Below the pieces are notes generated by a model. It saw only the letters and a program-made list of their open reading frames with translations, did no database searches and was not told where the DNA came from. From IMG/VR virus record IMGVR_UViG_3300027973_000015, positions 1 to 35,362 of that record: 35,362 bases of DNA, one strand, 5' to 3'. Origin of the DNA: a virus. Position numbers and translations under genes: made by a program. This document shows, piece by piece, positions 1 to 35,362 of the stretch. Numbering within the stretch: position 1 is the first letter of the stretch; the number at the start of each line of letters is the position of its first letter.

Positions 1-127
1 AATGTACAAAAAGAAGATGTAGATAATGTAATTGAAAAAGCAAAGCAATCTGGGGGGGAAATAGATAAATTAGGAAAAGATTTAGCTTCAAAATATGGTG
101 GAGTTGTTACACCTATAAACTATAAAT
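1..127. repeat. Terminal direct repeat, left copy (circular-contig overlap)
   Basis: The first 127 bases are identical to 35236-35362. The repeat lies inside one open reading frame that continues correctly through the join, so the molecule closes into a circle of 35235 bp. A length of 127 equals a common maximum assembly k-mer, so this is most likely an assembly overlap and not a physical terminal repeat. Confidence 0.95.
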
Positions 128-597
128 CAGAGGAATCTATTACCAGAAAGGTCAATAATGACTATGGGGGAAATATTAATGAATTAAAGGACTCTGTTAG
201 AAATACTGTAATAATAGACAATGAACAAGGTTTAAAATCAGCCGTCAAGGATTTGACTGATAACCCAAATACTTTAAGAATTAAAGTACAAAATCACGAA
301 TCTGACCCTTTAGGATATAGTGGTACTATTGCAAACGTTAAAATGAGTAATGGGTTAATTGGAGAAGTGCAAGTAAATAGTGCTAAAATGATTTATGCAA
401 AAGAAAACGAAGCCTCTGCAAAAGCAATTTTAGGTAATAGCAAATACAATCAAATAGCTAAGGAAACAGGAAAACCAGGGGGATTAGGTCATAAATTATA
501 CGAAGAGTATAGATTATTAGACCCTAAAAAAGATGCCAGTAAGATGTCTGAAATCGCAAATAAATCCAAAGAATATTATAAAAATTTTAGAGGATAA
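1..597 (+). CDS. Capsid protease fusion, C-terminal part: RelA/SpoT-like alarmone synthetase domain (5' end is at 34573)
   Basis: This is residues 222-419 of the gene that starts at 34573 and crosses the circular join; base 1 is a codon start, so there is no break in frame. The segment reads as a RelA/SpoT nucleotidyltransferase domain, the fold that moves pyrophosphate from ATP to GTP/GDP or, in toxSAS relatives, to other acceptors. Motifs in family order are: K263-S264 followed by SITRK; D285 in LKDSVRNTVI (metal ligand position); G326-Y327 (guanine-stacking loop); E343 in LIGEVQV (second acidic catalytic position); and GHKLYEEYR at 384-392, typical of the toxin-like branch. The His that often follows the GY motif in housekeeping enzymes is not evident. 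The DNA is visibly richer in A/T than the protease half, which suggests a swapped-in C-terminal module. Catalytic activity and the acceptor are inferred, not shown. Confidence 0.85.
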   Translation, partial: NVQKEDVDNVIEKAKQSGGEIDKLGKDLASKYGGVVTPINYKSEESITRKVNNDYGGNINELKDSVRNTVIIDNEQGLKSAVKDLTDNPNTLRIKVQNHESDPLGYSGTIANVKMSNGLIGEVQVNSAKMIYAKENEASAKAILGNSKYNQIAKETGKPGGLGHKLYEEYRLLDPKKDASKMSEIANKSKEYYKNFRG

Positions 598-623: not shown

Positions 624-842
624 ATGAAACATACGGAAATTTTAAATCTTTTAGCCTCAGGTAATGAAGTTTATTTTATCAATTCTTTTGATGAAATAGC
701 TTTTAAAAGTATTCCTAATGGGGGATATGAAGCTAAATTTAAAAATGGCAAACCATACACAATAGAAATTGGTTCTGAGCCATTAACACAAGCATTTTTA
801 GAAGGAAAAGTAATTACTAAATCGGAATACGAAAAATATTAA
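624..842 (+). CDS. Small hypothetical protein downstream of the synthetase fusion
   Basis: A 72-residue acidic-to-neutral protein starting MKHTEILNLLASGNEVYF. A TTG at 618 would add two residues, but the ATG at 624 is preferred. It lies 26 bases after the synthetase fusion on the same strand, so it is probably translated from the same message. It has no signal peptide, membrane segment or recognisable domain. Its last 26 bases overlap the convergent hydrolase gene tail to tail. Small genes directly after polymorphic-toxin domains are often immunity or accessory proteins; that role is only a guess from position. Confidence 0.7.
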   Translation: MKHTEILNLLASGNEVYFINSFDEIAFKSIPNGGYEAKFKNGKPYTIEIGSEPLTQAFLEGKVITKSEYEKY

Positions 843-1338
843 TTAATATTCCTTTTAAGTAAAATAACTTAAGCCTATTTGATAAAGGCTTATTAAATTT
901 GAAGTATATAATTTTGAATTGTTCTGATTCATTTATATACTTTTTAAATTTATGGTAATTCTTATTTCTTATAGATTCTCTAACATTACATATCCTATCA
1001 CATATCTTTACTATTGAAGCTATTTTGCTTTTAGATATTTCTTTGTAATAATTATCTATTGTATTTTTTTTAGTTAATAATTTTACATTATTATAAACTA
1101 TAATACTTATTTCTTTTATTTTATTTTCGTCCATATCAGTATCTTCTAATATATCGTGCAAAGCGCATACAGAAAGGATTTCATCATATTTATTACCTGT
1201 GATATTGTTTTGTTTACAAAATCTTTCTGCTTCAAACCAAACATCTAATAAATGATAAATGTAAGGCTTAGACCCATACTGCTGATACTTATGGTATTCA
1301 GCAGCAAGGGCAAGTGATTTATATCTTAGTGTTTGCAT
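817..1338 (-). CDS. Small alarmone hydrolase (HD domain, MESH1/SAH-like)
   Basis: A 173-residue single-domain HD phosphohydrolase of the RelA/SpoT hydrolase family, which removes the 3'-pyrophosphate of (p)ppGpp and related products using Mn2+. The expected motifs are present in order: H16 in the first helix, KPYIYH with H29, the HDILEDT motif with H61-D62 and E65-D66, LLTKK at 87-91, and VKICDRICNV with D114 and N118. All metal-binding positions are intact, so activity is predicted. There is no synthetase or regulatory domain, as in MESH1 and in SAH antitoxins paired with toxSAS synthetases. It is the second gene of a two-gene minus-strand unit, 3 bases after its neighbour, and converges on the RelA/SpoT-like fusion gene. 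The likely role is to neutralise the product of that fusion. The gene is AT-rich compared with the structural genes. Confidence 0.88.
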   Translation of the reverse strand: MQTLRYKSLALAAEYHKYQQYGSKPYIYHLLDVWFEAERFCKQNNITGNKYDEILSVCALHDILEDTDMDENKIKEISIIVYNNVKLLTKKNTIDNYYKEISKSKIASIVKICDRICNVRESIRNKNYHKFKKYINESEQFKIIYFKFNKPLSNRLKLFYLKGILINIFRIPI

Positions 1339-1341
1339 ATT

Positions 1342-1917
1342 TTAAGCGTACCAACTTGAATAAACTCCAGATTCTTGATTTTTGTACTCATAAAAGCCTC
1401 CGTATTGTGCTTTGATATGATAACCAATGTTGCCGTTATATCCAACTGAAAGGATAACCCTTTTTAAAATCGGCTCTCCAATAAAAGCATTTTCAACTGG
1501 CTTAACATTCGCACACATAAAACCTTCGCTTCCTTCGACAAAACTTTTAGCTATTTTTTGAATCATTATCGATTTTGATTTGACTTCAATAACTTGGTAA
1601 AAGCTAATGTTTGTCTGTTCATATCCCCAACTATTGTAGAATATTGAACCAACCTCAAAGTTATGACTCATATTTTTTTGAGCCTCTTTTTTAAGAGCCT
1701 TTCTCTCATTTTCAGCTTTAATGTTTTTTTCAACCTTTTCAATCCATTCATTACAAAATTCAATCATACGTTCAACGCTTCTGAATCTGTAATTAAATAA
1801 AGCTTTTGGGAAACGAGCCTTACTTGCTTTTTTCATACAACAACCAATAATCATTGGTTCATTTTTAAGAATGAGAACAAATCCCAAACTTTCATACTTT
1901 TCAATCAAATTTTTCAT
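1342..1917 (-). CDS. Conserved-looking hypothetical protein, first gene of the minus-strand unit
   Basis: A 191-residue soluble protein. The N-terminal half (about 1-80) is basic and helical (EWIEKVEKNIKAENERKALK). The C-terminal half (about 85-191) resembles a compact beta-rich domain with aromatic motifs such as FYNSWGYEQTNISFYQV and ends YSSWYA. I have seen this kind of GxxFYxSWGYEQTNxxFYQV protein as an unnamed family in mobile elements but cannot assign a function. It precedes the alarmone hydrolase and shares its promoter, so it may help control or support it. Confidence 0.8.
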   Translation of the reverse strand: MKNLIEKYESLGFVLILKNEPMIIGCCMKKASKARFPKALFNYRFRSVERMIEFCNEWIEKVEKNIKAENERKALKKEAQKNMSHNFEVGSIFYNSWGYEQTNISFYQVIEVKSKSIMIQKIAKSFVEGSEGFMCANVKPVENAFIGEPILKRVILSVGYNGNIGYHIKAQYGGFYEYKNQESGVYSSWYA

Positions 1918-1948: not shown

Positions 1949-1982
1949 CAAATATACAAACTTTTCACAATCCACAATCAAA
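1949..1982 (-). promoter_or_regulatory. Bacteroidota-type promoter for the minus-strand hydrolase unit
   Basis: Read on the minus strand, TTTG (1982-1979) is followed after 22 bp by TATATTTG (1956-1949), a perfect match to the Bacteroidota -7 box TAnnTTTG. The start codon of the first minus gene (1917) is 31 bases further. This predicts expression by the unmodified host polymerase, independent of the capsid genes. Confidence 0.65.
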
Positions 1983-2004: not shown

Positions 2005-2050
2005 AATGATAAGCGGTAAATATCAATGATGAATGGTAAATTTAAATGAT
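2005..2050. repeat. Three direct repeats with 20-bp period between divergent units
   Basis: The hexamer AATGAT occurs at 2005-2010, 2025-2030 and 2045-2050, exactly 20 bp apart. The first two units also share GGTAAA at 2015-2020 and 2035-2040, and a further GGTAAA is at 1985-1990. A period of two helical turns places the units on one DNA face, as expected of an operator. The array sits between the minus-strand promoter and the scaffold gene. Confidence 0.55.
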
Positions 2051-2075
2051 AAACATATTATTCTCTTTATATTTA
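2045..2075 (+). promoter_or_regulatory. Candidate phage promoter before the scaffold gene
   Basis: AATGAT (2045) is followed by TATATTTA at 2068-2075. The same two elements with the same 23-bp offset occur before the capsid protease gene (34537 and 34560, there AATATTTA). The box differs from the host TAnnTTTG only at its last base. It may be a late promoter used with a phage factor. Confidence 0.4.
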
Positions 2076-2089
2076 AAGAAAAAAGTATT

Positions 2090-2674
2090 ATGAACGCAAG
2101 AGATGCAATTATGCAAATTAGGGCTTTGTTCGAAGATATGCCAATGGATGCTCCTGCACCTGTTGAAGCACCAATCGAAGAGGTACCTGTTACATTCGCA
2201 GAATATAGCCTTATGGACGGAACGAAGGTTATGATTAGCGAACTTGCTATTGGTGGCGAAGTTACTTTAGCAGACGGAAGTCCTGCTCCTGTTGGCGAAC
2301 ACCAATTAGCTGACGGCACTAAAATTGTTTTAGACGATGCTGCTAAAATCTTATCTATTGAAACCCCAGAAGCAGAAGCTAAAGAAGCTGACGAAAACCC
2401 TGCTGAAATGGGTAAAAAGTATGATGAGAAAATGGCTGACGAAATTACAAACTTAGTAGCTGAAAACGAAAATCTTAAAACACAAGTAGCACAATTAGAG
2501 GCAAAAGTTAAGAATGGCTTTAGTCAAGTAGCTGAATTAATAGAGGCACTTACTAAGACACCTAACGCTGAACCTATTGCGCAACCAAAACAAAACTTCG
2601 GTTCTAACGTAACAACTCATTCAATGAAGTACGATAGAATTGAGAAATTTAGAAACGCTTTATTAAACAAATAA
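2090..2674 (+). CDS. Probable head scaffolding protein
   Basis: A 194-residue acidic protein from the ATG at 2090 (MNARDAIMQIRALFEDMP). An in-frame ATG at 2033 would add an AT-derived tail (VNLNDKHIILFIFKEKS) unlike the rest and is rejected. The middle carries a small Gly/Asp-rich beta segment (DGTKVMISELAIGGEVTLADG). The second half is a coiled coil (about 125-155) rich in Glu, Lys and Leu, and a short basic helix (YDRIEKFRNALLNK) ends the protein. This is the usual plan of scaffolds, whose C-terminal helix binds the major capsid protein. It lies 12 bases before the major capsid gene. No sequence family was recognised with certainty. Confidence 0.7.
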   Translation: MNARDAIMQIRALFEDMPMDAPAPVEAPIEEVPVTFAEYSLMDGTKVMISELAIGGEVTLADGSPAPVGEHQLADGTKIVLDDAAKILSIETPEAEAKEADENPAEMGKKYDEKMADEITNLVAENENLKTQVAQLEAKVKNGFSQVAELIEALTKTPNAEPIAQPKQNFGSNVTTHSMKYDRIEKFRNALLNK

Positions 2675-14722: not shown

Positions 14723-14934
14723 ACCTTTAAAGTACAATAAAGGTAGTAATACTACTACTTTTGGCTGCATTTTACTTCCGAATTTGTCAATCAATAAAGT
14801 TGTATTTATCAATCAATAGATAAGTTTTACCCTTACTTTATGTCGGAATTTTACATCATTAGATACCTTTTTTTGACATAATGTGCGATAAAATGCACAT
14901 TACTCGGTTTTTTGTCCTATGTAAAACCCATTAT

Positions 14935-14961
14935 TTGCAACAAGGTTACAAAAATAAATTT
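14935..14961. repeat. 27-bp repeat, copy 1, operator-like dyad
   Basis: The 27 bases are identical to 24707-24733. They begin with a near-perfect dyad TTGCAAC-AAG-GTTACAA (one mismatch in 7-bp arms). In both places the repeat lies just upstream of a TAnnTTTG promoter. Confidence 0.8.
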
Positions 14962-23540: not shown

Positions 23541-24706
23541 TGCAGACAGTAGGCTTGAAATTACATAACCCACACCCTGCGCAAAAGCAAGTAATTGACT
23601 GCGATAGTAGGTTTATTGTAATGATGGCAGGGAGAAGATTTGGCAAGTCCTTGATTAGCCAAACGATTAGCATAGACACGGCAGTAAATAAAAAGCGAGT
23701 AGCTTACATTACACCTACTTACCAATTAGGTAAAATATTCTTTAAAGATATTATAGACCTATTACCTTTAGAGATATACTCTAAAAATGAAAGCGACCTG
23801 GTTATAACTTTTATAACGGGTGGCAGCATACGTTTCTTTACAGGCGAAAGGTTAGATAATCTTCGTGGTTTAAAGTTTCACTTGGCAGTAATAGACGAAG
23901 CGTCTTACATACCTAACTTAGAAGACGGGTGGCTTAATTCAATAAGACCTACCTTAACGGACTATAAGGGTAAAGCTATATTCTTAAGCACCCCTAAAGG
24001 TAAAAACTACTTCTTTAGTTTGTTCAGCAAAGCCGAACCCGATTGGCAAAGCTTTAAGTTTACGACATACGATAACCCTTACATAGACCCTAACGAAATA
24101 GACGATGCAAGGAAGCAACTGCCCGAAGTTGTGTTTGAGCAGGAGTATATGGCAAACCCGGCTGAGAACGCGGCAAACCCTTTTGGTAGCCAACACATAC
24201 GCAAGTGCTTACACCCTGTTACAACTATGCCGGTAGTGGCTTATGGAATTGATCTAGCCAAGTCGGTCGATTGGACAGTTATCATAGGTTTAGACGAAGA
24301 CGGGAATGTGGCTTATTTTGACCGCTTTCAAATGGATTGGCACAATACTAAGCAAACTATCCTTAGGCTGCCTAAATGCCCTATCCTTGTCGATTCTACG
24401 GGGGTTGGAGACCCGATACTTGAAGACCTACAAAGAGAAGGGGTAATGATACAAGGCTTAAAGTTTACAAGTTCAAGTAAGCAGCAGCTTATGGAAGGCT
24501 TACAGGCTGCCATACATCAAGGCAAGATTGGTTACCCTGAGGGAATAATCAGCCAGGAGTTAGAAGTATTTGAGTATCAATACACGGCAACGGGGGTAAA
24601 GTACTCAGCACCTTCAGGCTTTCACGATGACGCAGTTGTGGGGTTGGCTTTGGCTTGGCAGAACTTTAGCCTTAAACGAGGTACGGGTAGGTATGCCTTC
24701 CTATAA
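23540..24706 (+). CDS. terL: Terminase large subunit
   Basis: A 388-residue packaging motor and nuclease. ATPase: Walker A AGRRFGKS (31-37), Walker B LAVIDEAS (D119, E120), coupling motif FLSTPKG (149-154). Nuclease (RNase H fold): GIDLAKS (D238), LVDSTGVGD (D285) and FHDDAVVGLA (D363/D364). It is somewhat short but complete. It pumps DNA through the portal encoded at 4687. Confidence 0.95.
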   Translation: MQTVGLKLHNPHPAQKQVIDCDSRFIVMMAGRRFGKSLISQTISIDTAVNKKRVAYITPTYQLGKIFFKDIIDLLPLEIYSKNESDLVITFITGGSIRFFTGERLDNLRGLKFHLAVIDEASYIPNLEDGWLNSIRPTLTDYKGKAIFLSTPKGKNYFFSLFSKAEPDWQSFKFTTYDNPYIDPNEIDDARKQLPEVVFEQEYMANPAENAANPFGSQHIRKCLHPVTTMPVVAYGIDLAKSVDWTVIIGLDEDGNVAYFDRFQMDWHNTKQTILRLPKCPILVDSTGVGDPILEDLQREGVMIQGLKFTSSSKQQLMEGLQAAIHQGKIGYPEGIISQELEVFEYQYTATGVKYSAPSGFHDDAVVGLALAWQNFSLKRGTGRYAFL

Positions 24707-24733
24707 TTGCAACAAGGTTACAAAAATAAATTT
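24707..24733. repeat. 27-bp repeat, copy 2, operator-like dyad
   Basis: Identical to 14935-14961. The dyad TTGCAAC-AAG-GTTACAA occupies 24707-24723. The repeat starts just after the terL stop and its end overlaps the -33 element of the promoter below. Confidence 0.8.
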
Positions 24734-25521: not shown

Positions 25522-25723
25522 TTAAAAAAATAACCTACAAACCAGAAACGATATAAAATTAGAAACATAATTCTAATTATTTAAAAACAAGCTATTTAAA
25601 AACAATTATTCAATCAAATTAGAAATATAATTCCAATTTAAAAATTTAGTATTTATACTTAATATTAATTAAATAAATTAAATTAACTTTCTACTTTATT
25701 AAAAAAATTAAAACAAATAATCT
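25522..25723. other. Very AT-rich intergenic segment with two dyads and direct repeats
   Basis: A 202-bp gap with almost no G or C. It has a perfect dyad AATTAGAA-N6-TTCTAATT (25557-25578) and a related dyad with one change, AATTAGAA-N6-TTCCAATT (25617-25638), exactly 60 bp apart. Between them is a 13-bp direct repeat TATTTAAAAACAA (25578-25590, 25593-25605), 15 bp apart. No gene. Candidate operator or origin region. Confidence 0.6.
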
Positions 25724-25960
25724 ATGAAAACAGCAATGCAAGAATTAATTGAAAAATTAGATTATTCAATTAAAAACTCAGAAGATGATTATAAAATAAA
25801 TTTTGAATGGATAAAATTTCACGCTGAAATATTACTTGAAAAAGAAAAAGAGCAGATAATAGATGCTAATAGACAAGGTAGATGTAATGATTGTCCATTT
25901 ATGTATTCAAATGAAGATGCAGAAAAATACTACAACCAAACCTATAACCAAAACAAATAA
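25724..25960 (+). CDS. Tandem-family small protein, member 1
   Basis: A 78-residue acidic helical protein: MKTAMQELIEKLDYSI, then LLEKEKEQIIDANRQG, then CNDCPF and a YYNQTYNQNK end. The same N-terminal, central and C-terminal motifs recur in the genes at 25964 and 26246. This family is seen widely in Bacteroidetes genomes and phages; function unknown. Each copy has a near-identical start context (ATAAYCTATGAAAAC). Confidence 0.7.
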   Translation: MKTAMQELIEKLDYSIKNSEDDYKINFEWIKFHAEILLEKEKEQIIDANRQGRCNDCPFMYSNEDAEKYYNQTYNQNK

Positions 25961-25972
25961 CCTATGAAAACA
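25922..25972 (+). repeat. 51-bp direct repeat, copy 1
   Basis: This spans the end of the first family gene, the gap and the start of the second. It matches 26429-26479 with one difference in 51 bases. It supports gene duplication in tandem. Confidence 0.85.
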
Positions 25973-26242
25973 ACAATGCAACAAGCAATTGAATATTTAA
26001 AATCATTCAATTTAGAAGCCTCAGCAATTATACTTGAAGATAAGTTTCTTGAGAAAGAAAGAGAGCAGATGATAAACTTTGGGTATGAATGTAGGGACTT
26101 TAAAAGTATTTTACCACAAGATAGATTTGAAGCAACCTATAACCAAAATAAATTACTTAAAAACTACATTAATAGTATAAAAGTAGACCCTATTAAAAGT
26201 CAAGTAACAACAACTGGTGTATGGACTCCAAAAACAAATTAA
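25964..26242 (+). CDS. Tandem-family small protein, member 2 (divergent)
   Basis: A 92-residue protein: MKTTMQQAIEYLKSFN, FLEKEREQMINFGYE, then a shortened form of the YNQNK motif and an added tail (QVTTTGVWTPKTN). It is the most diverged of the three copies. Confidence 0.7.
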   Translation: MKTTMQQAIEYLKSFNLEASAIILEDKFLEKEREQMINFGYECRDFKSILPQDRFEATYNQNKLLKNYINSIKVDPIKSQVTTTGVWTPKTN

Positions 26243-26245
26243 CCT

Positions 26246-26467
26246 ATGAAAACCGCAATGCAAGAATTAATTGAATTTATAGAAAGCACTAATAATACCC
26301 CATATGTAAATTTAACAATTATGGATAAAGCTAAAAAACTGCTTGAAAAAGAAAAAGAGCAAACTATAAGTTTTGCAAATGAATGGTATGAAGAGTATTG
26401 TGAAGGATTAGGTGATTTTAAAACACCAGAAAAATACTATAACCAAACCTATAACCAAAACAAATAA
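26246..26467 (+). CDS. Tandem-family small protein, member 3
   Basis: A 73-residue protein: MKTAMQELIEFIESTNN, KLLEKEKEQTISFANE, ending EKYYNQTYNQNK as in member 1. The middle differs, which indicates an old duplication with the ends kept or exchanged. Confidence 0.7.
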   Translation: MKTAMQELIEFIESTNNTPYVNLTIMDKAKKLLEKEKEQTISFANEWYEEYCEGLGDFKTPEKYYNQTYNQNK

Positions 26468-26479
26468 CCTATGAAAACA
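26429..26479 (+). repeat. 51-bp direct repeat, copy 2
   Basis: See 25922-25972. The two copies are 507 bp apart and could recombine, removing or adding one gene pair. Confidence 0.85.
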
Positions 26480-26692
26480 GAATTAAATGTATTTCCAAGC
26501 TATACACTTATTGCAACTAAAAACAATAATGAAGATTGTAAATGTTATGTAGTAGTATCTTGCAGTAAAAATGAAGGATATTATTTTAATAATTCTTATG
26601 TATTTAAAAATAGAATGGATGCTGAAAAGTATATTGAACAATTAGATAGTCAAGATACTTTTGATATAGTAGAATTAAACTTTATTGATTAA
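26471..26692 (+). CDS. Hypothetical protein
   Basis: A 73-residue protein (MKTELNVFPSYTLIATKNNN) with strands and a helix (NRMDAEKYIEQLD). It shares the start context of the tandem family but not its sequence. Unknown role. Confidence 0.65.
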   Translation: MKTELNVFPSYTLIATKNNNEDCKCYVVVSCSKNEGYYFNNSYVFKNRMDAEKYIEQLDSQDTFDIVELNFID

Positions 26693-34572: not shown

Positions 34573-35362
34573 ATGGACTTACCTGTTTATTTATTAGACA
34601 TTAGCGAGGATATGAATGACGATGCCGAGGTCGATTATGTGGCACTCGTTGACAAACCTGCTATACAAAAGAACTGGAATGCATTTAAAAATCAACAACG
34701 TTTTGAAGTGGTTAGCGAAGATAAGCGTATTATTTCTGGACCTCTTATGCTTGCTGACGTACCTATTTTTAGGAGCGATGCTACTTATGGCGATTACTAT
34801 GTTGTCTTTTCTAAAGATACTATTTTTAAGATTGCGCAAAAGTTTTTCAAAAGAGGCTACCAATCAAACGTAAACTTGATGCACTCTCCTGACAAACAAG
34901 TCGAAGGTGTTACTATGTTTGAAAGCTTTATTACAGACGAAAGCAGAGGCATACAACCAATGAAAGGTTTTGAAGATGCACCTGACGGGTCGTGGTTTGG
35001 TTCTTTTAAAGTAGACAACGAAGGGGTGTGGAACGATGTTAAAGAGGGTAAATTCAAAGGCTTTAGTGTAGAGGGATTGTTTACTTACAAGACAAAGCCT
35101 AACAAAGAACAAGAGTTAATGAATCAAGTATATAGAATACTTGAGCAAGTTAATTTTGGCGGACCTGGTAGTGGTAGAAGGTCAGAAGGTGGTGGGGACA
35201 AAGAAACAACTGTAAGCGCTCCTACTTCAAAAATAAATGTACAAAAAGAAGATGTAGATAATGTAATTGAAAAAGCAAAGCAATCTGGGGGGGAAATAGA
35301 TAAATTAGGAAAAGATTTAGCTTCAAAATATGGTGGAGTTGTTACACCTATAAACTATAAAT
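34573..35362 (+). CDS. Capsid maturation protease (XkdF-like), N-terminal part of a fusion with a RelA/SpoT-like synthetase
   Basis: The gene starts at ATG 34573 (MDLPVYLLDI) and continues across the join to 597, making 419 residues. Residues 1-175 have the plan of XkdF-type prohead serine proteases: YVALVDKPAIQKNW (about 22-35), VNLMHSPDKQVEG with probable catalytic His104, and FKGFSVEGLF with probable nucleophile Ser165. These enzymes cleave the scaffold and mature the capsid from inside the procapsid. Residues 196-207 (GGPGSGRRSEGG) form a Gly-rich linker common after phage head domains. From about 240 the protein becomes the synthetase domain described at 1-597. Self-cleavage in the linker could leave the synthetase free inside the head. 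The last 127 bases repeat 1-127. Confidence 0.85.
   Translation, partial: MDLPVYLLDISEDMNDDAEVDYVALVDKPAIQKNWNAFKNQQRFEVVSEDKRIISGPLMLADVPIFRSDATYGDYYVVFSKDTIFKIAQKFFKRGYQSNVNLMHSPDKQVEGVTMFESFITDESRGIQPMKGFEDAPDGSWFGSFKVDNEGVWNDVKEGKFKGFSVEGLFTYKTKPNKEQELMNQVYRILEQVNFGGPGSGRRSEGGGDKETTVSAPTSKINVQKEDVDNVIEKAKQSGGEIDKLGKDLASKYGGVVTPINYK
35236..35362. repeat. Terminal direct repeat, right copy (circular-contig overlap)
   Basis: Exact copy of 1-127. Removing one copy gives a circular sequence of 35235 bp. Confidence 0.95.

Follow-up and report, generated by a model that had tools for sequence, protein, structure and literature searches.

The window analyzed here, the whole stretch of 35,362 nucleotides of the IMG/VR virus record IMGVR_UViG_3300027973_000015 (positions 1 to 35,362), encodes a 419-residue protein in which an XkdF-type capsid maturation protease is joined in frame to a C-terminal toxin domain of the Tas1/Apk kind. 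Among related loci, the same protease carries this domain, an unrelated Zeta-toxin kinase, a short domain or nothing, and genes of antidote type adjoin the toxin. The explanation that we favor, with moderate confidence, is that the capsid maturation protease serves these phages as the carrier of a polymorphic toxin of the phage head.

A capsid protease and a toxin domain share one reading frame

An end-to-end comparison of the window shows that bases 1–127 and 35236–35362 are exactly identical. Because its 127-bp ends are identical, the contig closes on itself: the window is a circular contig of 35,235 bases, and the length of the overlap suggests the k-mer overlap typical of an assembler. Across the closure, positions 34573–35235 and 1–597 form one frame of 420 codons (419 amino acids and a stop) with no internal stop. 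An earlier note, made from the sequence alone, had claimed this single frame and had named a misassembly at 35235/1 as what would overturn it. The claim is borne out and a misassembly is excluded, as contig L003 (IMGVR_UViG_3300044638_003409) contains the same 419-residue fusion in mid-contig, with identities of 97% in the protease and 96% in the synthetase, and homologous fusions at lower identity are found in more than 30 further contigs.

The carrier domain (residues 1–195; 34573–35157, plus strand) matches the Pfam family PF14550 (Peptidase_S78_2/XkdF) over residues 46–168 with an E-value of 6.1e-14, and its PHROG matches are the head maturation proteases 34096 and 3017. The putative catalytic residues His104 and Ser165 are kept in all 19 aligned protease relatives. 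The profile match, the conserved His and Ser, and the adjoining genes for a scaffold and a major head protein together place the carrier among the XkdF proteases; searches of residues 1–220 against Pfam and PHROGs returned no MuF or head-morphogenesis match.

The linker GGPGSGRRSEGGGDKE (consensus GGPGSGRRPEGGGDKE), recognized by its motif, begins at residue 196 and extends to residue 211 (35158–35205, plus strand), which is where the effectors are switched; the earlier note had described this junction as a GGPGSGRR linker. In an AlphaFold model of the L003 fusion, the two folded parts are separated by residues 189–220, whose predicted local distance difference test score (pLDDT) is below 50, and the linker is predicted to be flexible or disordered. 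The DNA past the linker is more AT-rich, as had been remarked, by a modest drop in GC content from 37.1% before it to 31.3% after it.

The C-terminal domain (residues 222–419 and the stop; 1–597, plus strand) is almost certainly a Tas1/Apk-type enzyme, an adenosine 3'-pyrophosphokinase, as judged from its sequence and predicted structure; its first part appears a second time at 35236–35362 (plus strand), the contig-end duplicate of 1–127. In particular, a phmmer comparison with PDB entry 6ox6_A (Tas1 of Pseudomonas aeruginosa) yields an E-value of 6.5e-40 over residues 8–195 of 198. Tas1 is also the best PDB match of the L003 AlphaFold model (Foldseek E-value 1.5e-17, target template modeling score (TM-score) 0.89, 41% identity), followed by weaker Foldseek matches to SaEAS, SAS1/2 and CapRel with E-values of about 4e-6 to 1e-4 (1.5e-5 for CapRel). 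The earlier note had proposed such a structure prediction as a check on its RelA/SpoT-type assignment, which passes it. Among PHROGs, the domain matches the C-terminal part of phrog_7625 (E-value 2.5e-17); Pfam and NCBIfam hold no usable match for the window's own domain, the Pfam matches Fy-3 and AAA_lid being chance.

The catalytic residues Asp285 (in an LKDSVRNT motif), Tyr327 (GYSG) and Glu343 (GEVQVN), along with Lys355 and Glu356, are invariant in 24 of 24 homologues; these three, like His104 and Ser165 of the protease, occupy the positions first assigned to them. The ratio of nonsynonymous to synonymous substitution rates (dN/dS) of the synthetase domain is about 0.06–0.24, which argues that synthetase function is retained and, together with the invariant active-site Asp, Tyr and Glu, that the fused frame is not a product of chance.

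Tested members of the Tas1/Apk class convert ADP and ATP to (p)ppApp (PMC12226406, PMC12691689). By homology to Tas1 and Apk2, the synthetase would likewise pyrophosphorylate ADP and ATP to (p)ppApp, draining the energy pool. We infer (p)ppApp as the product, rather than (p)ppGpp or tRNA-CCA-pp, because Tas1 is closer than CapRel and the SAS enzymes and because the neighboring hydrolase best matches a (p)ppApp hydrolase. The earlier wording of an alarmone or toxSAS-type enzyme therefore stands as far as a RelA/SpoT-fold toxin is concerned, now of the Tas1/Apk kind; a tRNA-targeting toxSAS similar to FaRel2 or CapRel is less likely, since Tas1 is far closer by both sequence and fold. Housekeeping alarmone synthetases are likewise far more distant than Tas1 in the fold comparison.

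Effectors are exchanged on the protease carrier

Related loci were found via pattern seeds from a few sequences, and identical neighborhoods were removed before counting, leaving 113 distinct loci; the counts should not be read as natural frequencies. In 63 of them the protease is empty, in 30 it carries an Apk domain, in 18 a Zeta domain and in 2 a short domain. The empty form, the commonest state, is 194 residues long, ends in ...AIKEILQRVK and is directly followed by the scaffold gene. The Apk form continues with the linker GGPGSGRRPEGGG and then the Tas1-like domain, while in the Zeta form the same linker, with its GGPGSGR motif, leads into a Zeta-toxin kinase (PF06414, E-value 1.8e-27). 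As in polymorphic toxins, one N-terminal carrier therefore has Apk, Zeta, short or no effectors at its C-terminus, exchanged by recombination.

On a quick tree of the protease DNA, the effector state changes 17 times, and the well-supported branches force at least 11 changes for Apk and at least 9 for Zeta. For example, the Apk locus L168 and the Zeta loci L110 and L111, which come from different samples, have proteases with 100% protein identity and 99.2–99.4% DNA identity; their DNA homology breaks at the linker and resumes at p191, a cassette gene described below. Compared with its empty relative L019, the window contains an insert from about 35128 to about 2041, between the protease and the scaffold gene. 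Moreover, the window and L007 share 87% identity in their Apk domains and 68% in their proteases, while the window and L008 share 69% in their proteases and about 55% in their Apk domains, a disagreement indicating that cassettes move independently of the carrier. From these sequence comparisons, there is very little doubt that the effector on the protease carrier is swappable and has been exchanged repeatedly at the linker.

Besides the Apk and Zeta forms, two kinds of C-terminal extension were observed. In L137–L139 (for example, L138:4425–5384), the protease and linker precede a short domain of about 115 residues that has no recognized family and is accompanied by no antidote genes. A further XkdF protease carrier (L233:1626–2765) has a different C-terminal domain (ending ...EELIRGTYKVKEI...), for which a reading by eye as an ADP-ribosyltransferase was not supported by Pfam, NCBIfam or PDB searches.

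Antidote-type genes adjoin the toxin

Behind the fusion gene, positions 624–842 (plus strand) encode a 72-residue protein similar to the binding immunity proteins Tis1 and IapK. The single sequence has no meaningful PDB match and a family profile was needed: for a profile of 20 relatives (A5), 6ox6_B (Tis1, PA14_01140) is the top and sole significant PDB match (E-value 6.3e-4), and it is also the top fold match of the AlphaFold model of the 72-residue protein (pLDDT 86; probability 1.00, TM-score 0.71). Convergent with this gene, tail to tail, lies a gene (817–1338, minus strand) for an Aph1-like small alarmone hydrolase with an HD domain, which would be an enzymatic antidote. A profile of 11 HD relatives (A6) best matches PDB entry 7smg_A, described as '(p)ppApp hydrolase', with an E-value of 5.6e-30, a better match than PaSAH or any SpoT/Rel HD domain; the single sequence matches PaSAH (6yvc/6z3n) with an E-value of 5e-7. 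Profiles and models thus make it very probable that the 72-residue and HD proteins are paired antidotes of the toxin.

The HD gene is paired with p191 (1342–1917, minus strand), which encodes a 191-residue protein of phrog_37844 and was recognized by its PHROG match and its co-occurrence with cassettes. Every Apk and Zeta cassette on a sufficiently long contig contains it, and the empty loci all lack it; distant homologues occur in Vibrio and other phages. Upstream of the pair lies TATATTTG (1949–1956, minus strand), a candidate Bacteroidota-type -7 box by consensus match only, and the full TTTG-N20-TATATTTG arrangement, likewise a consensus match only, is found upstream of the pair in L007, L008, L095, L097 and L099. 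This sequence is a candidate for a separate promoter of an antidote operon. With a candidate promoter of its own and the opposite orientation, the antidote could be expressed independently of the late genes.

The accompanying genes follow the effector. All three of IapK, Aph1 and p191 are present in 23 Apk loci, and 5 further Apk loci have Aph1, p191 and a diverged 74-residue open reading frame at the place of IapK, so that an Aph1-type gene accompanies 28 of 28 protease–Apk fusions whose contig extends far enough. Seventeen Zeta loci have p191 and a gene for a 57-residue protein (p57), never IapK or Aph1. None of IapK, Aph1, p57 and p191 occurs in any of the 63 empty loci; one remaining Apk locus and one remaining Zeta locus sit at contig ends. 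The p57 gene (for example, L011:7455–7628, minus strand) always adjoins the Zeta-type effector and is a candidate antitoxin for it; the protein has no detectable relatives in Pfam, PHROGs or NCBIfam. The immunity gene is therefore adjacent and matched to the toxin type, as is characteristic of polymorphic toxins, with p57 a candidate only. The earlier note, which rightly described a protease joined to a RelA/SpoT domain, had overlooked both antidotes, the Zeta and empty versions and the recurrent swapping.

Comparison with known toxin systems

The fusion and its neighbors constitute an Apk toxin-immunity system. As in the Apk2 systems of prophages, a toxin of the same family is C-terminal on a head protein and is adjoined by both kinds of antidote, an IapK/Tis1-type binding immunity protein and an Aph1-type (p)ppApp hydrolase (PMC12226406, PMC11699363). 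The protein is not, however, an Apk2 protein, as its carrier is the XkdF capsid protease and its N-terminus is not MuF. It also differs in that aph1 lies on the opposite strand with p191, that an integrase was not found and that the linker is common to Zeta versions. Further, Tas1 (Apk1) and Tis1 of P. aeruginosa share the enzyme fold and active site (TM-score 0.89, 41% identity) and the immunity fold (TM-score 0.71), but Tas1 belongs to a type VI secretion system as an effector with a PAAR domain, whereas the toxin here is carried by a phage head protein and is accompanied by a hydrolase as well.

MuF polymorphic toxins likewise place a variable C-terminal toxin on a virion head protein, with adjacent immunity and with alarmone-synthetase and zeta effectors (PMC3482391, PMC5512222, PMC5576092), whereas the present fusion has no MuF domain. 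MuF–RelA/SpoT and MuF–zeta fusions were predicted by Zhang 2012, Iyer 2017 and Jamet 2017 (PMC3482391, PMC5512222, PMC5576092), and MuF RelA-like toxins have been reported (PMC5576092); a protease carrier is not described in those three studies. A 2025 survey of Apk1 homologues lists the export domains Sec, type VII secretion system (T7SS), XopAD, MuF, DUF4157 and Rhs/PAAR, and no protease (PMC12691689). The Alt and internal proteins of phage T4 are also enzymes enclosed in the head and injected with the DNA (PMC5512222), but they are not fused to a protease, whereas here the protease itself is the carrier. Nothing that matches a prohead or maturation protease together with a toxin was found in the open-access literature searched, and within that literature the earlier suggestion of an undescribed carrier holds.

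These comparisons suggest a second route, besides MuF proteins, for loading toxins into phage heads: phage-head polymorphic toxins would not be tied to MuF, since a maturation protease has served as a carrier on which alarmone-synthetase and zeta-kinase effectors have been exchanged repeatedly. A protease carrier also hints that release is built in, and the system would allow the role of head-borne toxins for the phage to be tested. Phages that are almost isogenic except for an Apk, a Zeta or no effector amount to a natural experiment.

Proposed mechanism and its alternatives

In the proposed mechanism, the fusion would enter the prohead in the late phase together with the protease, and the antidotes would keep the producing cell alive until lysis. 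Autoprocessing by the protease at or near the disordered linker would free the enzyme inside the head; the freed enzyme would enter the next cell with the DNA and would act there before, or unless, the incoming genome makes the antidotes. As a speculation, the party weakened by it might be the host, a competing phage or a cell that degrades the incoming DNA. The steps differ in strength: by analogy, the fusion is likely built into the head, its delivery to the next cell is an evenly balanced proposition, and the release of the toxin by cleavage at the linker is a tentative one, falling slightly short of that.

Support for a head-linked role comes from the company that the toxin keeps. The same toxin family occurs on head-morphogenesis proteins of the MuF kind in L175, L176, L177, L180, L183 and L184. 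Behind the MuF–Apk gene lie, on the plus strand, antidote-type genes of both the small and the HD kind in L176 and L183 and of the small kind in L175; the domain on Zeta carriers matches part of the minor head protein family phrog_16619. MuF toxins have been proposed to be loaded into heads and injected (PMC5576092), and a MuF-fused Apk2, followed by iapK and aph1, is toxic in E. coli and makes (p)ppApp (PMC12226406). In a separate observation, the 1021-residue MuF–Apk protein of L175 (2496–5558) is apparently interrupted by an intein-like segment within its MuF domain.

Several points weigh against the loading of a toxin into heads on the protease. As a rule, the heads of HK97-like phages lose both the protease and its debris, and a freed domain might be lost with them. 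No tyrosine or serine integrase (PF00589, PF00239) was found in 12 relatives, the phages of this group look lytic, although they may integrate by other routes, and the lysogen-competition model for MuF toxins may therefore not apply, leaving the benefit of the toxin less than obvious. Most near relatives of the window's own lineage are without the cassette, and the phage collection yielded no close isolate. As for cultured hosts, none of 396 genomes from the order to which the Riemerella genome G001 belongs contains the protease fusion, and a scan of genome contigs found only two loci with the toxin domain, both on MuF-type carriers.

The best-surviving alternative, which we consider unlikely though well worth weighing, is that the toxin acts in the producing cell, as a late (p)ppApp or alarmone synthetase for host takeover or for the timing of shutdown that the antidotes tune, so that the fusion would do no more than couple the amount of toxin to the assembly of heads. 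The position of the fusion gene in the late structural block, near the scaffold and the major head protein, agrees with such a role, as do the presence of the antidotes in the same genome, with the HD/p191 pair on the other strand behind its own candidate promoter, and the seemingly lytic lifestyle. It fails to explain, however, why the toxin is invariably fused to a protein of the head interior (the protease in these phages, MuF in others) or why the unrelated Apk and Zeta toxins sit at the identical place behind the same linker. Because two unrelated head proteins carry the same toxin family, and because unrelated toxins share one fusion site behind one linker, a head-linked role is favored over a role in the producing cell.

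Less probable still is a selfish addiction cassette for which the protease C-terminus is a permissive landing site, and which would spread because loss of the antidote is fatal to the phage, with no benefit from loading into the head. Such a cassette would fit the frequent gain, loss and exchange (the 17 changes on the protease tree), the empty and filled alleles side by side among near-identical phages, and the unexplained extra gene p191 that is found only with cassettes. Addiction, however, would need no more than a free-standing toxin gene, whereas every intact copy in this phage group is joined in frame to the protease through the linker; in addition, no integrase-like mobility gene was found in the cassette. 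Lastly, that an assembly artefact at the contig ends merged two separate genes has practically no standing, since the join does coincide with the 127-bp overlap but the fusion is already established in mid-contig in L003 and more than 30 independent contigs.

The linker motif beyond the protease carriers

A search of the viral collection for GGPGSGRxPEGG found it in 76 stretches, most of them the protease carriers described so far. Elsewhere, the motif joins a portal protein to a PBECR1 nuclease (L248:1516–3423) and another to a DUF4258-like domain that is below the Pfam cut-off (L211:2773–4569). It lies within proteins resembling other, S78-like head maturation proteases (L226:11358–12590 and L247:374–2704), between a methyltransferase-like part and an XkdF protease (L202:4488–6320), and near the N-terminus of small proteins (L193, L205 and L241). 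Among these non-cassette occurrences, it is sometimes present twice or three times per protein. A tblastn search of the phage collection with the 23-residue linker gave no match, and 'GGPGSG' retrieved only unrelated papers from the literature.

Since the motif is common to unrelated head proteins, the linker may have a function of its own in cleavage or targeting. A bolder version, which we regard as improbable, is that tailed phages in general use the 12-residue GGPGSGR-x-PEGG as a signal for processing or for targeting to the head, which would mark the sites at which payload domains are released by the maturation protease within the head. If true, the head loading of swappable toxins would be a broad, protease-operated system and not a peculiarity of MuF proteins.

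Other features of the window

Downstream of the cassette, positions 2033–2674 (plus strand) encode a scaffold-like protein, assigned by its PHROG match and by alignment with L019; in empty relatives, it directly follows the protease. A single gene in phrog_24921 unites a protease (5–178) with a scaffold-like protein (210–318). From kinship with Nonlabens phages, a Bacteroidota host is our guess.

Positions 25710–26500 contain a run of duplicated small genes with near-identical starts (MKTAMQELIE...) and repeats of 44–53 nt at their boundaries. Moreover, a 30-nt direct repeat, TTGCAACAAGGTTACAAAAATAAATTT, is found ahead of genes at 14932–14961 and 24704–24733; the two copies are 97% identical, lie about 9.8 kb apart and are possibly a shared promoter or operator.
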